Shown here in pieces: positions 9,490-47,821 of a stretch of DNA of 47,946 nt. Both the position numbers and the translations under genes were made by a program. Under the pieces are notes generated by a model. It worked only from the letters and a program-made list of their open reading frames with translations, did not search any database and had not been told where the DNA came from. The number at the start of each line of letters is the position of its first letter. Position 1 is the stretch's first letter. The DNA lies in assembly GCA_018716065.1 (NCBI GenBank), contig DVKJ01000048.1:1-47946 (forward strand), given 5' to 3'. The stretch comes from Candidatus Pelethosoma merdigallinarum. Lineage in GTDB: Bacteria; Bacillota_I; Bacilli_A; RF39; UBA660.

Positions 9490-9546
9490 ATAGAGGCATT
9501 GAATTTCTATGGCATTTTAGATGTCATGGCGGAAGGAGAGATAAGT

Positions 9547-11764: not shown

Positions 11765-11812
11765 GAATAAATAACAGATTTTTATGATACAATGATAGTG
11801 GAGGGGATTCTT

Positions 11813-13081
11813 GTGGAATATTTAAAAAGAATTGTTGATGAGGAATTAAAAGAAAAATTATCTACAGTCGGTGCGGTTCAGATTAAAGGACCAAAATGGT
11901 GTGGAAAAACTACAAGTGCGAAACAAATTGCAAAAAGTGTATTAGAAATGCAAAATCCAGATTTACAAGATAATTATATCGAACTTGCAAATACCAAACC
12001 TTCTTTATTATTAGAAGGAGAAAAGCCAAGACTAATTGATGAATGGCAAATGGTTCCTAAACTTTGGAATGCAGTTAGGTATTCAGTGGATCAATCCGGA
12101 CTTACGAACCAGTATATTTTAACGGGATCTGCCACACCTGTTGACGATGATTCGTTACATAGTGGAGTTGGAAGATTTGCGATTATAGATATGAAACCAA
12201 TGTCATTATATGAATCGGGTGATTCTAACGGAAAAATTTCTTTATTTGATTTAATGAATGGAAAAAAGAATATAGATGGAATCAAAACGGATTTGGATTA
12301 TGAAAAAATTGCTTATACACTATGTCGTGGAGGATGGCCAAACTCCATTCATTTAGATCCGAAACAAGCGCTTCAAATTCCAAAGAATTATTTGGATGTA
12401 TTATGTGAGTCGGATATTTCTAAAGTAGATGGTGTTAAAAGAGATCCTGAATTAATGAGAACGATTCTACGTGCTTATGCGAGACAAGTATCAACGATTG
12501 ATTCTGACAAAAGTATGCTTGCGGATATAAAAGCAAATTATGCGGACGTGAGTGATGTTACCATTTTAAATTATCTAAAAGTATTAAAAAGACTATATAT
12601 CATCGAAGAAATACAAGCATGGAATCCTAATATTAGAAGTAAAACATCGATTCGTACTTCACCTAAAAAAAGTTTTGTAGATCCATCCCTAGCTGTATGT
12701 GCATTAGGATGTTCACTAAAAGAGTTGATGTTAGATATTAATACATTCGGTCTTTTATTTGAAAATTTAGTCAATCGTGATTTGAGTATTTACGCAAGAA
12801 AAAATGGGGGAATACTTAAACATTATCGAGATCGTTACGGACTAGAATGTGATAATATTATTTGTTTTGAAGATGGAAGTTATGCTTTGGTGGAAGTAAA
12901 ATTAAGTGGATCTAGAGTCAAAGAAGCAGAAGAACACTTGTTACAATTAAAGAAATTAATTGATGAAAGTGATGAAATTAAAGTAAAGCCTAGTTTATTG
13001 ATGATTATCACTGGTACTGATATGGCTTATAGAACAGAAAGTGATGTATGTGTAGTTCCAATTGGATGTTTAAAAGATTAA
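11813..13081 (+). CDS. AAA ATPase with DUF4143 domain
   Basis: A 422-aa protein of the AAA_14/DUF4143 class. Walker A is KGPKWCGKTTS near residue 35, Walker B-like RLIDEWQ near residue 78, then LTGSATP (sensor). The C-terminal third (LLFENLVNRDL, then VEVKLSG) resembles the DUF4143 restriction-endonuclease-like fold. These proteins are common, sporadically distributed and of unknown role. Start is GTG 11813, just after GGAGGGG; the ATG at 11792 lies upstream of that ribosome site. A GATACAAT -10-like box is at 11785-11792. The 23-bp repeats upstream suggest an accessory cassette. Confidence 0.85.
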   Translation: MEYLKRIVDEELKEKLSTVGAVQIKGPKWCGKTTSAKQIAKSVLEMQNPDLQDNYIELANTKPSLLLEGEKPRLIDEWQMVPKLWNAVRYSVDQSGLTNQYILTGSATPVDDDSLHSGVGRFAIIDMKPMSLYESGDSNGKISLFDLMNGKKNIDGIKTDLDYEKIAYTLCRGGWPNSIHLDPKQALQIPKNYLDVLCESDISKVDGVKRDPELMRTILRAYARQVSTIDSDKSMLADIKANYADVSDVTILNYLKVLKRLYIIEEIQAWNPNIRSKTSIRTSPKKSFVDPSLAVCALGCSLKELMLDINTFGLLFENLVNRDLSIYARKNGGILKHYRDRYGLECDNIICFEDGSYALVEVKLSGSRVKEAEEHLLQLKKLIDESDEIKVKPSLLMIITGTDMAYRTESDVCVVPIGCLKD

Positions 13082-13088
13082 TATACAT

Positions 13089-13136
13089 GGGGGGGGGTAT
13101 CTAATATTGATGTTTTCCTTCTTTTTTTTTTACAAT
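13089..13136 (+). promoter_or_regulatory. Promoter with G9 and T10 tracts, likely phase-variable
   Basis: TTGATG at 13107-13112 and TACAAT at 13131-13136 are separated by 18 bases that end in a run of ten T (13122-13131, the last T being the first base of TACAAT). A run of nine G lies at 13089-13097. The same block upstream of 25081 has a 16-base spacer and G6-A-G2. Length change in a spacer homopolymer is the known mechanism of promoter phase variation. Confidence 0.55.
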
Positions 13137-13159
13137 AAAATAAGAATAGAAGGTGGCAT

Positions 13160-14956
13160 ATGAGAACACGAAAGAAACAAAGAATTATTATTGGGACATT
13201 GTGTTCTATTTTAGTTGGTTTAGCAATAAGCTATGCGATACTAAGTCAACAATTAAATATCAATGGAACGAGTGGAATCACATCGAACTTTAATATTTTG
13301 TTTATCAATATCGAAGAAGGAACAATAAACGGAGCGAAAACCATCAATAAACAAATTACAAACTCCACTACGGCAACTTTTACAATAGCTTTAGAAAAAC
13401 CAAGTTCTAGTGGAGAGTATTTGATTACGGTAGAAAATCGAGGAACCATTGATGCCTATGTAGAAAGTATTAGTGGAATTGACGAAGCTAATTCCATTAA
13501 ACCAAAAGATATCAAATTTAGTGTTGAAGATATCAAAATCAATGAAAAACTAAAAGCCAAAGAATCGAAAATATTCAAAGTGAAAGTAGAATGGGATAGT
13601 AATGGGACGAGTATCCCAAGTACGAATAAAGATTTAACGTTAAGTATTAACTTTGTTCAAGACACAGGGACTATATCACCAAGTGAAAATACACTAGCTA
13701 AAACGACTCAAACGTTATTAGATTCTAGTACAGAGGGAATCTATAATTATATGGATGGAACGTATTTAAAAGGAAGACAAGATTCTAACTATGTTTGGTT
13801 TGATGGATTTCTATGGCGAATCATGGGAAAGAATAGTGATGGAAGTATCCGTATGATTACGGAAGAAAACATAACCGCAATCCCATGGGGAGCAGAAAAT
13901 ACAGCTTTAGATTACGACAATAGTAATGTGAATGATTGGTTAAATAATTACTTTTATCCAAAATTAGAACATAAAGATTCACTTGTTAATCAAACATGGT
14001 GTAGTGAAATAACAACATCTACATCCTTACGAACAACATGTAAAAACAATTTATCGACTGTACAAAAACCAGTCGGATTATTATCATTAGATGAATACAA
14101 TTTAGCTAATGGAAATTCTAGTTATTTGCACATATTACAAAATTATTGGATATTAACACCATATGATATCTCGAATGCTTGGTATGTGAACTACTATGGT
14201 AATGCGACAAGCTACTATGTTGTGACGAGTACACATGGTGTTCGTCCCGTTGTAGGAATTTCCTCTGATACTTTGATTACAAGCGGTAATGGGTCCTTGG
14301 TAAACCCATATGTGATCGAAGAAGTTAATGATGTATTAGGAAGTCTAAAAGATAATAGTAATGTAGGAGAATATGTAACATATGCTAGAAGAAATTATCG
14401 AGTTGCTGAAACTAGTCATGATGGAACCAAGTTAATCTTAGATGGATATTATGATAGTAATAATGATGGAATTATAGAAGATTCGGATAAAATGGTCTAT
14501 GGGACAAATTGTACTTTATGCACAGTCATAAATGAAGAAGCATTTATAAATTGGATCAGTAATAATAATGAAACAGATAAAAATAAATTAGTATCAACCA
14601 CATGGTATCGAGGAGATTATTTTAACTATGGTGATAATTATAAAAGTTATTTGGAAAGTACAAGTAATTCTTATGAAGGAAAAGTAGGATTAATCCGAGT
14701 AGGAGAGATGTTATCAGATCAAAGTGAAACTATACTTTCAAGAAATCGTACAACAAATAATGATTATGATAATACACAAAATTATTGGACAGCTACATCA
14801 TTTAGTGCATCGTTTTCTTGGGACGTGTACGATCATGGATATGCGACCATAAACACTGTGACGAATAAATTTGTCGTGCGTCCAGTGATCATGATCTCTC
14901 CTGATGTGCAAATCACATCTGGTAATGGAACCTTTAATGAACCGTTTCAAATATAA
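13160..14956 (+). CDS. Surface protein with two DUF6273-like domains
   Basis: A 598-aa protein. The N-terminus RTRKKQRIIIGTLCSI begins a single membrane anchor, followed by the shared beta domain (about 35-175) and two C-terminal repeats (about 190-390 and 395-598). Each repeat has a WRIMG or NYRVAE start, an NYW core and ends RPV...SGNG-N-P, the layout of DUF6273 domains. The stretch between NYW and RPV differs strongly between repeats and between paralogues, while the frame around it is conserved. ATG follows AGAAGGTGG. Related to 25081 along its full length and to 34 in the N-terminal part. Probably a surface-exposed variable protein. Confidence 0.7.
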   Translation: MRTRKKQRIIIGTLCSILVGLAISYAILSQQLNINGTSGITSNFNILFINIEEGTINGAKTINKQITNSTTATFTIALEKPSSSGEYLITVENRGTIDAYVESISGIDEANSIKPKDIKFSVEDIKINEKLKAKESKIFKVKVEWDSNGTSIPSTNKDLTLSINFVQDTGTISPSENTLAKTTQTLLDSSTEGIYNYMDGTYLKGRQDSNYVWFDGFLWRIMGKNSDGSIRMITEENITAIPWGAENTALDYDNSNVNDWLNNYFYPKLEHKDSLVNQTWCSEITTSTSLRTTCKNNLSTVQKPVGLLSLDEYNLANGNSSYLHILQNYWILTPYDISNAWYVNYYGNATSYYVVTSTHGVRPVVGISSDTLITSGNGSLVNPYVIEEVNDVLGSLKDNSNVGEYVTYARRNYRVAETSHDGTKLILDGYYDSNNDGIIEDSDKMVYGTNCTLCTVINEEAFINWISNNNETDKNKLVSTTWYRGDYFNYGDNYKSYLESTSNSYEGKVGLIRVGEMLSDQSETILSRNRTTNNDYDNTQNYWTATSFSASFSWDVYDHGYATINTVTNKFVVRPVIMISPDVQITSGNGTFNEPFQI

Positions 14957-20296: not shown

Positions 20297-20398
20297 TTCG
20301 CAAATAGCAAGACAATGTAAATATTAAAAAGCAAGAAACAATTGATAAATAAAGGATTATTCCCGATTCTTACTTTTAAATGGAGAGGGTTAGTGCCA

Positions 20399-20428
20399 TT
20401 GACAACCTGTTTTTTATTATATTATAAT
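20399..20428 (+). promoter_or_regulatory. Sigma-A promoter of the zinc-ribbon gene
   Basis: TTGACA at 20399-20404 and TATAAT at 20423-20428 with an 18-base spacer. Confidence 0.8.
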
Positions 20429-20453
20429 AAAATCGAAAGGTAGGAAAGTAGTT

Positions 20454-25009: not shown

Positions 25010-25057
25010 ATGGGGGGAGGTATCTGATATTGATATTTTCCTTCTTTTTTATACAAT
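25010..25057 (+). promoter_or_regulatory. Promoter with G and T tracts, second copy
   Basis: TTGATA at 25030-25035 and TACAAT at 25052-25057 with a 16-base spacer including T6. G6-A-G2 lies at 25012-25020. The block from ATATACATG to the start codon is nearly the same as at 13081-13160 apart from these tracts. Confidence 0.55.
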
Positions 25058-25080: not shown

Positions 25081-26871
25081 ATGAGAACCAGAAAGAAACA
25101 ACGTATTATTATTGGAATGCTGTGTTCTATTTTAGTTGGACTAGCCATAGGCTATGCGGTTCTAAGCCTACAATTAAATATTCAAGGAACCGGAAGTGTC
25201 ATCTCTAACTTTCAAATCTTATTTACGAAAATAGAAGAAGGAACCATGAATGGAGCGAAAACCATTCAAAAAGAAATTGTCGGAGATACCACCGCTAACT
25301 TTATCATTGATCTCAAATCGCCTGGTTCAAATGGAGAATACGTCATTACGGTAGAAAACAGAGGTAATATTGATGCCTATGTAAAAGATATTAAAGGAGT
25401 CGTAGACTCTAATAAAAAAGAACCTAAAGATATCCAATTTAGTATCAATGGATTAAAAGTAAATGATAAACTAAAGGCAAGAGAAACAAAAACATTTAAA
25501 GTAAAAGTAAATTGGAATAGTAATTCAACAACTATACCAGAAACGAGTAAAGATTTAAGCTTAACCATTGATTTTGTACAAGATACAAATAATATTGAAT
25601 CAGGAGGAAATATAACAGAATTAGTTCAAGATTTATTAAAAACAAGTCCCGATGGAACCTATGAATATATGGGAGGAACCTATTTAAAAGGAGTCCAAGA
25701 TTCTAACTACATCTGGTTTGATGGATTCTTATGGCGAATCATGGGAATCAATGAAGATGGAAGTATCCGTATAATTACCGAAGAAAATGTGACAGCTATA
25801 CCATGGGGAGCCGCCAATACAGTTCAAGATTATGACAATAGTTATGTGAATGATTGGTTAAACAATTATTTCTATCCCAATTTAAAAGATAAGTACTTAC
25901 TTGTGAATCAAACATGGTGTAGTGAGACAACATATTCAAATTCAAGAAGAACTACATGTAAAAATAATTTATCGAAAGTACAAAAACCTGTTGGATTATT
26001 ATCACTTGATGAGTTTGAGCTTTCGAGGGACTTTTCAAGTTATTTAGTAAATTCACAATTTTATTGGACATTAACACCAAGAAGTTCATCGATTGTATGG
26101 CGTGTGGAACATCAAGGAATTGCAGGCTCTAGTGGAATTTCCGGTGTGTCTAGCACCGGTGTTCGTCCTGTTATTAATATTCAATCCAATATTTCTGCTA
26201 TATTTGGAACTGGTACTTTGCAAGATCCATTTGTTATTGAAGATCAAAATATGAGAGGTAATCTAAATGAATATAGTTTAATCGGAGAATATGTGACATA
26301 TGCTGGAAGAAATTATCGAGTAGTAGAGACATCTGATCAAGGAACAAAATTAATATTAGATGGATATTACGATCAAAATAATGATGGAATAATAGAAGAG
26401 GTCGATAAAACAGCATACGGAGAAAATTGTACGTTATGTACAACTATAAATGAAGAATCGTTTATCAATTGGATTAGTAATAGTAATGAAATAGATAAAA
26501 ATAAATTAGTCTCAACCACATGGTATCGAGGAGAATATTGGATAGGTGAAAATTATAAGAATAATTTAGAAAGCGCAAGTAATCCCTATGAAGGAAGAGT
26601 GGGGTTAATAAGAGTAGGAGAAATATTATCTGGTCAAAGTGAAACAATCCTATCTAAAAATCATACAACAAACAATAGTTATGGTAATGCTCAAAATTAT
26701 TGGACATCTACATTATATAGTATAGGAAGTGTGTGGAATGTTAAGCTTAATGGTGTTGCCCAAAAAGATGGGAAATCGAATCCGTATTCTATCCGTCCAG
26801 TGATTATGATTTCTCCTGATGTTCAAATACTTAGTGGAAATGGGACCTTTAATAGTCCATATACAATTTAA
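25081..26871 (+). CDS. Surface protein with two DUF6273-like domains
   Basis: A 596-aa full-length paralogue of 13160. Same membrane anchor (MRTRKKQRIIIGMLCSI), same beta domain and two DUF6273-like repeats. Domain 1 has WFDGFLWRIMG, ITEENVTAIPWG and VNDWLNNYFYP; domain 2 has YAGRNYRVVET and CTLCTTINEESFINWIS, and both finish RPV...GTG or GNG. Between NYW and RPV the two paralogues and both repeats have quite different residues, which points to a variable surface or ligand loop. ATG follows AGAAGGTGA. A terminator follows directly. Confidence 0.7.
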   Translation: MRTRKKQRIIIGMLCSILVGLAIGYAVLSLQLNIQGTGSVISNFQILFTKIEEGTMNGAKTIQKEIVGDTTANFIIDLKSPGSNGEYVITVENRGNIDAYVKDIKGVVDSNKKEPKDIQFSINGLKVNDKLKARETKTFKVKVNWNSNSTTIPETSKDLSLTIDFVQDTNNIESGGNITELVQDLLKTSPDGTYEYMGGTYLKGVQDSNYIWFDGFLWRIMGINEDGSIRIITEENVTAIPWGAANTVQDYDNSYVNDWLNNYFYPNLKDKYLLVNQTWCSETTYSNSRRTTCKNNLSKVQKPVGLLSLDEFELSRDFSSYLVNSQFYWTLTPRSSSIVWRVEHQGIAGSSGISGVSSTGVRPVINIQSNISAIFGTGTLQDPFVIEDQNMRGNLNEYSLIGEYVTYAGRNYRVVETSDQGTKLILDGYYDQNNDGIIEEVDKTAYGENCTLCTTINEESFINWISNSNEIDKNKLVSTTWYRGEYWIGENYKNNLESASNPYEGRVGLIRVGEILSGQSETILSKNHTTNNSYGNAQNYWTSTLYSIGSVWNVKLNGVAQKDGKSNPYSIRPVIMISPDVQILSGNGTFNSPYTI

Positions 26872-42836: not shown

Positions 42837-43052
42837 TTATCTACCACGTTTTCTTAATTTACGAACCATTGTGAAAACTAAGCTCATTACGATACCAAGA
42901 ACAACAACTCCAATTGTTAATTGGAATAATGAATTACTCATTAATTTAGTACCTACCGTAGTAAATAGGGTTAAAATATTGGTAATAACGGTGGTTACAT
43001 TATCAAATAATGTACCAATTGCAGTTGTAGGTGTTTCAAGAACATTCAACAT
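42837..43052 (-). CDS. Major coat protein, second copy
   Basis: 71 aa: an amphipathic N-terminal helix (ETPTTAIGTLFDNVTTVITN), a hydrophobic membrane span (TIGVVVLGIVMSLVFTMV) and a basic end RKLRKRGR that would face DNA in the virion. The last 30 residues are nearly the same as in the copy at 43071. No cleavable signal peptide is apparent. The plan is that of pVIII-type coat proteins; the assignment is by shape, order and duplication. Ribosome site GAGGAGG. Confidence 0.7.
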   Translation of the reverse strand: MLNVLETPTTAIGTLFDNVTTVITNILTLFTTVGTKLMSNSLFQLTIGVVVLGIVMSLVFTMVRKLRKRGR

Positions 43053-43070
43053 AATATAAATCCTCCTCTA

Positions 43071-43253
43071 TTATCTACCACGTTTTCTTAATTTACGAAC
43101 CATTGTGAAAACTAAGCTCATTACGATACCAAGAACAACAACTCCGACAGTCAATTGAAAAATCGGATTACTCATTAAAGTAGTTGATACAGTACCAAAT
43201 AAGGTTAAAATTTCTGTAACAACTTCTGTAATAGCCGTAAAAAGTGCCGTCAT
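43071..43253 (-). CDS. Major coat protein, first copy
   Basis: 60 aa from ATG 43253 (after AAGGAGAA): MTALFTAITEVVTEILTLFG, a membrane span (TVGVVVLGIVMSLVFTMV) and RKLRKRGR. It matches the copy at 42837 over the C-terminal half but differs in the N-terminal helix. A longer frame to 43283 lacks a ribosome site. First gene after the strongest phage promoter, preceded by a 170-base leader with a hairpin. Confidence 0.72.
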   Translation of the reverse strand: MTALFTAITEVVTEILTLFGTVSTTLMSNPIFQLTVGVVVLGIVMSLVFTMVRKLRKRGR

Positions 43254-44678: not shown

Positions 44679-44694
44679 CCCTTATCTCGCCCCA
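44679..44694. repeat. Attachment site attR (16 bp)
   Basis: Exact copy of 37275-37290. Its last six bases (GCCCCA, 44689-44694) are also the first six of the 122-bp inverted repeat of the next element. Confidence 0.88.
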
Positions 44695-44810
44695 GATGTG
44701 GGTATAAACAAACCACCTAGTAAATTGGTGGCACGTTTCATTATAGAAAAGCTTAGTAGACCTTGTGTTTACTAGGCTTTTTTGATTATATAAGGGAGCG
44801 TGATGATATG
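44689..44810 (+). repeat. Left copy of a perfect 122-bp inverted repeat
   Basis: Compared base by base with the reverse complement of 47700-47821: all 122 positions agree, and the match stops on both sides. It contains two hairpins, a T6 run, a ribosome site and, as its last three bases, the ATG of the gene at 44808. Confidence 0.95.
44713..44783 (+). promoter_or_regulatory. Attenuator-like leader of the left unit
   Basis: Hairpin 1: CCACC (44713-44717) with GGTGG (44727-44731). Hairpin 2: AAGCTTAGTA (44749-44758) with TACTAGGCTT (44770-44779) and T6, a terminator. CCTAGTAAA (44716-44724) in hairpin 1 is exactly complementary to TTTACTAGG (44768-44776) in hairpin 2, so an antiterminating fold exists. 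The same leader, inverted, precedes the gene at 46892-47674. Confidence 0.6.
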
Positions 44811-45119: not shown

Positions 45120-47666
<2,547 letters not shown>

Positions 47667-47674
<8 letters not shown>

Positions 47675-47702
47675 AATAATTCCTCCTAATGATGTCTAGC
47701 AT
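47667..47702 (-). CDS. 11-codon leader ORF MLDIIRRNYYD
   Basis: The ATG supplied by the inverted repeat (47702-47700) opens a frame of 11 codons ending TGA at 47667. It contains the AGGAGG of the 260-aa gene and overlaps its start by eight bases. In the left copy the same ATG starts the real 103-aa gene. Translation here could control access to the next start. Confidence 0.4.
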
Positions 47703-47821
47703 ATCATCACGCTCCCTTATATAATCAAAAAAGCCTAGTAAACACAAGGTCTACTAAGCTTTTCTATAATGAAACGTGCCACCAATTTACTAGGTGGTTT
47801 GTTTATACCCACATCTGGGGC
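47700..47821 (-). repeat. Right copy of the perfect 122-bp inverted repeat
   Basis: Identical to 44689-44810 on the opposite strand. Beyond it (47822-47946) lies 125 bases without a gene. On the minus strand that flank has a TATAAT box at 47891-47896, followed by the inverted repeat ATAATAGAC/GTCTATTAT (47867-47896), so a promoter reading into the repeat from outside is possible. Confidence 0.95.

Follow-up and report, generated by a model that had tools for sequence, protein, structure and literature searches.

Meningococcal porA and opc have phase-variable promoters in which a homopolymer occupies the spacer between the two boxes. Elsewhere, homopolymer changes near the −10 box alter expression, as for the poly-A tract of nspA (PMC6389960). 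In the pil1/pil3 attenuator of Streptococcus gallolyticus, GCAGA repeats within a translated leader peptide lie upstream of a terminator (PMC3894217). Intrinsic (Rho-independent) terminators can also serve as insulators, an example being T1 of Tn916 (PMC11658703).

The window, that is, the whole 47,946-nt stretch analysed here from Candidatus Pelethosoma merdigallinarum (G000; genome of 1.32 Mb, 91% complete), carries ahead of its surface-protein genes an element that can be compared with each of these systems. It resembles an intrinsic terminator in its stem, its short loop and a U-run placed against read-through into the gene downstream. Unlike intrinsic terminators, however, its 5′ strand is almost pure G9, a sigma-A promoter overlaps its loop, 3′ arm and U-run, and it is present in about two dozen dispersed copies, mainly for one surface-gene family. 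With the spacer-homopolymer promoters (porA/opc; nspA, PMC6389960) it shares a homopolymer between the boxes of a surface-gene promoter, and two copies in another species of the genus (G004) fit that type; in the window, by contrast, the spacer does not include the G-tract, and the T-run belongs to a conserved hairpin and is short in most copies and usually interrupted. The pil1/pil3 arrangement, a leader terminator plus a simple repeat before surface-appendage genes, resembles the form found in the sister genera g2 (G005, G174) and g158 (G164, G251, G263, G375, G439), although the repeat there is in the leader peptide and here is the stem itself. A terminator between promoter and gene is present in the g2 and g158 leaders and not in G000, where the promoter overlaps the hairpin and transcription starts downstream of it.

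The element in the window

The relevant features are as follows (window positions).

1–33, +, −10 box and 5′ UTR of a third copy; identical overlap with the abutting contig C49
34–1758, +, paralogous surface-protein gene, 574 aa, N-terminal part 70% identical
11792–13081, +, upstream co-directional AAA_14/DUF4143 gene, its stop codon ending 7 nt before the G-tract
13089–13097, +, G9, the 5′ strand of the hairpin
13089–13121, +, hairpin: G9 and TATC, 7-nt loop, GATG and TTTTCCTTC; 13 bp, several of them G-U
13107–13112, +, −35 box TTGATG, within the loop and 3′ arm of the hairpin
13122–13131, +, T10 run, the hairpin U-run and most of the −35/−10 spacer
13131–13136, +, −10 box TACAAT, spacer to the −35 box 18
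13150–13156, +, ribosome-binding site AAGGTGG
13160–14956, +, surface-protein gene of 598 aa with DUF6273 (PF19789, E 7.5e-8) and a membrane/signal segment at the N-terminus
20382–20432, +, weak divergent candidate copy: hairpin GGGTT/AACCT, T-run, TTGACA-18-TATAAT; E 0.007
25012–25044, +, second hairpin copy, starting GGGGGGAGG (25012–25020); 13 bp
25030–25035, +, −35 box TTGATA of the second copy, spacer 16
25045–25057, +, T6A and −10 box TACAAT of the second copy (−10 at 25052–25057)
25081–26871, +, paralogous surface-protein gene, 596 aa, DUF6273

The blocks upstream of 13160 and 25081 are 88% identical across 160 nt. An earlier, sequence-only reading of this DNA had described their tracts exactly (G9, T10 and a spacer of 18 at 13160, with a spacer of 16 at 25081); the difference that it saw between G9 and G6-A-G2 is confirmed in the sequence, and the promoters that it assigned to surface-protein genes are indeed conserved sigma-A-type boxes upstream of predicted surface-protein genes. 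Beyond its view were the genome-wide extent of the block, the third copy at the window start, whose G9 hairpin lies on contig C49 (30589 on), and the pairing of both tracts as one hairpin. No other T-run in the window is as long as the T10 at 13122, and only the G9 at 13089 reaches 7 or more G; 36 other T7/T8 runs are found elsewhere in the window.

The genes after the copies encode paralogues starting MRTRKKQRIIIG or related membrane-anchored proteins, several of them with DUF6273, which resembles C-type lectins in an analysis of phage proteins (PMC10743442). The upstream gene is co-directional in all 33 assessable copies. This is weak evidence, given that genes of this genome usually have such a neighbour anyway (in the window, about nine in ten do).

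The window also holds an L31-Firmicutes ribosomal protein leader (9507–9538, Rfam RF03156), two 153-nt direct repeats, 86% identical, in an AT-rich stretch (42837–43223), and 122-nt perfect inverted repeats (44689–44810 and 47700–47821) that flank a large serine recombinase gene (45147–46895) and also enclose an ORF of unknown function on the minus strand (46892–47674). The repeat-flanked segment 44689–47821 is a candidate mobile or invertible element.

Pairing within the hairpin

The hairpin is composed, in order, of the G-tract, 4–7 bases, a loop holding the TTGA of the −35 box, 4–7 complementary bases and about nine pyrimidines, followed by the T-run. Folding of the copies from G000 and from G001, the closest (sister) species, gave 13–15-bp hairpins of −10.9 to −18.1 kcal/mol in all but one copy, L013, from which a good hairpin is absent. 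As in an intrinsic terminator, the stem-loop is stable, a U-run follows directly, and the stem is conserved by compensatory change. The arms vary yet stay complementary (TATC/GATA, TATTTG/CAAATA, TATTG/CAATA, TTATTG/CAATAA, TATATGA/TCATATA), and one copy without G9 preserves the stem through the Watson-Crick pairs GAGGG/CCCTC. When the 3′ side was shuffled, no more than 6 of 300 shuffles were equally stable in 21 of 22 copies, and arm swaps among the three multi-copy classes weakened the hairpin (matched −13.3, −15.6 and −14.6 versus mismatched −10 to −12.4). A terminator scan of 19 kb returned the 13089 and 25012 sites as those with the longest stems.

Run on an alignment of all promoter copies made from sequence alone, RNAalifold found no good structure, since the arms of one main class are there shifted against those of the other. 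Pairs were counted instead in a structure-fitted alignment, which leans towards structure; 87.7% were paired, versus 80.3 ± 0.9% after shuffling and at most 68% after sliding, and double-change cells numbered 19 versus 6.8 ± 1.9. No covariance model of any Rfam 15 family matches the element. This pairing pattern makes a terminator U-run the best reading of the T-tract, and the base of the terminator stem that of the G-tract.

Copies across species and genera

A covariance-model search, the E-values of which are rough, found about 24 copies in G000 and about 14 in G001. Spacing between the conserved −35 and −10 boxes is 16–19, and among the 18 G000 copies with both boxes the spacer is 16 in one, 17 in eight, 18 in eight and 19 in one, such that the pair first described (18 and 16) straddles what is a broad distribution in the family. 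The family consensus at the T-run is T7 followed by G, with T5–T8 closed by G being common and T10 occurring only at 13122. Relative to the T7G consensus, the 18/16 difference amounts to a G-to-T or G-to-A change plus one T gained or lost; the G001 orthologue of the 13160 promoter has T7G, a spacer of 17 and an interrupted G-tract, G5AG3.

All 17 runs of at least 8 G in G000 belong to the element, and all are exactly G9, where simple arithmetic gives a chance expectation of about 0.1 for such runs. Four further G000 copies carry A-interrupted tracts (G6AG2, G2AG6, G3AG6 and G3AGAG3), and one copy, L110, has no G-tract. Shortened or broken G-tracts in G001 (L106, L107, L186, L187 and L190) precede apparently broken or missing genes, as judged in the stretch fetched, with some contigs ending nearby; these decayed copies suggest, though only tentatively, that the G-tract is kept while the gene is functional. 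All genomes compared are single assemblies, one per species and mostly MAGs.

In g2 and g158 the poly-G hairpin with its T-run lies between the promoter and the ribosome-binding site, and the genes that follow are prepilin-like (N_methyl), DUF6273-like and others. Another hairpin immediately precedes the poly-G one (GTGTGC...GCACAC in g2, AGTTTGC...GYAAAC in g158), and RNAalifold recovers both together over 22 leaders. The g158 leader alignment shows 96% pairing with weak covariation statistics, because its sequences are very similar and their poly-G stem shows little variation. Leader G-runs range from 8 to 12 and are mostly 10 (G174: 8, four of 10 and three of 11; G251: three of 10, 11 and 12; G005: 8, 9 and five of 10). 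A generic pattern matches 11 of the 385 genomes of the order, with many copies only in g2, g158 and the genus of G000, and the reversed-pattern control was near zero.

ORFs run through the G-tract in 35 of the 46 sister-genus leaders, but no leader ATG ORF with a Shine-Dalgarno-like motif does so in any of the 46, and a leader peptide across the tract was therefore rejected. In two G005 leaders, L196 and L265, a leader ATG stands 8 nt before the G-tract and is open through the hairpin, with no ribosome-binding site seen; G8 with C5 and G9 with C4 come to an equal total length and stay in frame with the main start codon. Some copies in G005 and G174 (L196, L206 and L246) also have a second, longer conserved leader segment, GCAGTCGAGGGGAAGACGC...AAAACCCCCTG...GTGTC, upstream of the poly-G hairpin, for which no Rfam match was found.

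The two G004 copies, L139 (contig C5) and L140 (contig C17), precede surface-gene paralogues and have G9 inside −35/−10 spacers of 18 and 19. Judged on their sequence, they are a strong candidate for a phase-variable promoter, fitting the mechanism first proposed for the window pair much better than that pair does. The L139 protein carries BspA-type leucine-rich repeats.

Probable role of the fused promoter and hairpin

As sequence features, the promoter and the terminator-like hairpin are each well supported; they overlap, and the T-run serves both. We favour, at a probability of roughly 55%, the reading that the block is a composite terminator-promoter, which would insulate the surface genes from read-through and start their transcription. 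On this reading, an RNA polymerase that has crossed the co-directional gene upstream would go on to transcribe the hairpin and be halted at its U-run, and a new surface-gene transcript would begin just downstream of the −10 box, by which the expression of the dispersed surface family would be insulated from neighbouring genes; both termination in vivo and insulation as the role are what we infer from these features. In the sister genera the hairpin comes after the promoter and before the start codon, and there it would attenuate the transcript of the very gene that it precedes. The use of the same kind of hairpin in those leaders counts for the composite reading. Against it counts a separate terminator-like repeat already present upstream of several copies (contigs C15, C22, C20 and C4), meaning that not every upstream gene depends on the hairpin for its end. 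In its favour, paralogues that lack the hairpin still have a promoter in the corresponding position, in several cases preceded by an ordinary terminator of its own. As a further caveat, ribosomes near a stop codon can suppress termination, as at tR2 in E. coli (PMC4824070), and could do so at copies only 6–10 nt past the stop codon, such as that at 13089. Plain insulation also leaves unexplained why the stem is poly-G rather than of mixed sequence.

A rival reading is replication slippage in the poly-G tract, in which changes in G number would alter hairpin strength, or the spacing to an adjacent leader hairpin, and thereby make the surface proteins phase-variable. G8–12 tracts stand out in AT-rich genomes, being confined to the element in G000 (17 of 17 runs, about 0.1 expected), and their lengths differ between copies within sister-genus genomes; L139 and L140 have the layout TTGACA-18/19-TATAAT with G9 in the spacer, and a leader tandem repeat upstream of a terminator switches pili in S. 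gallolyticus (PMC3894217). However, in G000 every uninterrupted tract is exactly G9, the A interruptions in four further copies and in the G001 orthologue of 13160 break the homopolymer, and a change of one G shifts stem stability only slightly. Uniform G9 together with interrupted tracts thus disfavours phase variation in this species, as far as its sequence can tell; uniformity could instead reflect a mutational equilibrium length and not constraint, and for that reason it does not alone exclude slippage. Overall we consider G-slippage possible but doubtful, and more plausible in the sister-genus leader form and in G004. Slippage in the T-tract, tuning the spacer around 17 and so switching the promoter, was the point of the sequence-only reading and now appears very unlikely. 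A T-run homopolymer does lie between the −35 and −10 boxes, the spacer does range over 16–19 between copies and is 18 versus 17 between orthologues, and the nspA homopolymer offers a precedent (PMC6389960). What fails is the expectation that a long, uninterrupted hypermutable tract is kept: the run is short (T5–T8) and in most cases closed by G, T7/T8 runs are frequent anyway in the window, spacers are 17 or less in half of the copies and 18 or more in the other half without any ON/OFF class standing out, and the length of the run is accounted for by its role as the U-run of a conserved hairpin. The G-tract, for its part, is no part of the spacer at these sites, and each of the 17 uninterrupted copies has exactly G9.

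A G-tract flanked by an AT-rich repeat recalls RcnR/FrmR operators, and the element sits beside and over the −35 box, as might a DNA operator in which the G-tract and the inverted repeat are recognised by a regulator of the CsoR/RcnR type or of another. The arms, however, differ within one genome while pairing is kept, and because many of the pairs are G-U, tolerated only by RNA, the structure makes sense as RNA rather than as an operator, which we regard as very unlikely. A search of G000 (91% complete) found no gene for a CsoR/RcnR-family regulator, and an operator under a member of that family was rejected on this ground. Least probable of all, in our judgement, is that the hairpin survives as a relic from an ancestor in which it was a leader attenuator, its role lost once a promoter arose inside it. 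The leader form does exist in the sister genera, and some G000 and G001 copies keep GCAAAC upstream of the G-tract, like the first g158 leader hairpin; on the other hand, compensatory changes continue within G000 and G001, and where the G-tract of a G001 copy is shortened or broken, the gene after it is in several cases broken or missing.

More speculatively, and with considerable doubt, the poly-G terminator hairpins may constitute a previously undescribed family that, across several genera within a single family of uncultured Bacilli, gates surface and prepilin-like proteins and is tuned by slippage. If this is true, the homopolymer is itself the terminator stem, such that changes in G number would reset termination, and two of the genera would have the gate as a leader attenuator, a third in the form fused with the promoter; a homopolymer stem would be an unusual way of making a terminator mutable. 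What began as a guess about one T-run has become a defined, searchable element with covariation support and many copies in each of three genera. It marks the surface repertoire of these small uncultured Bacilli and probably controls it.
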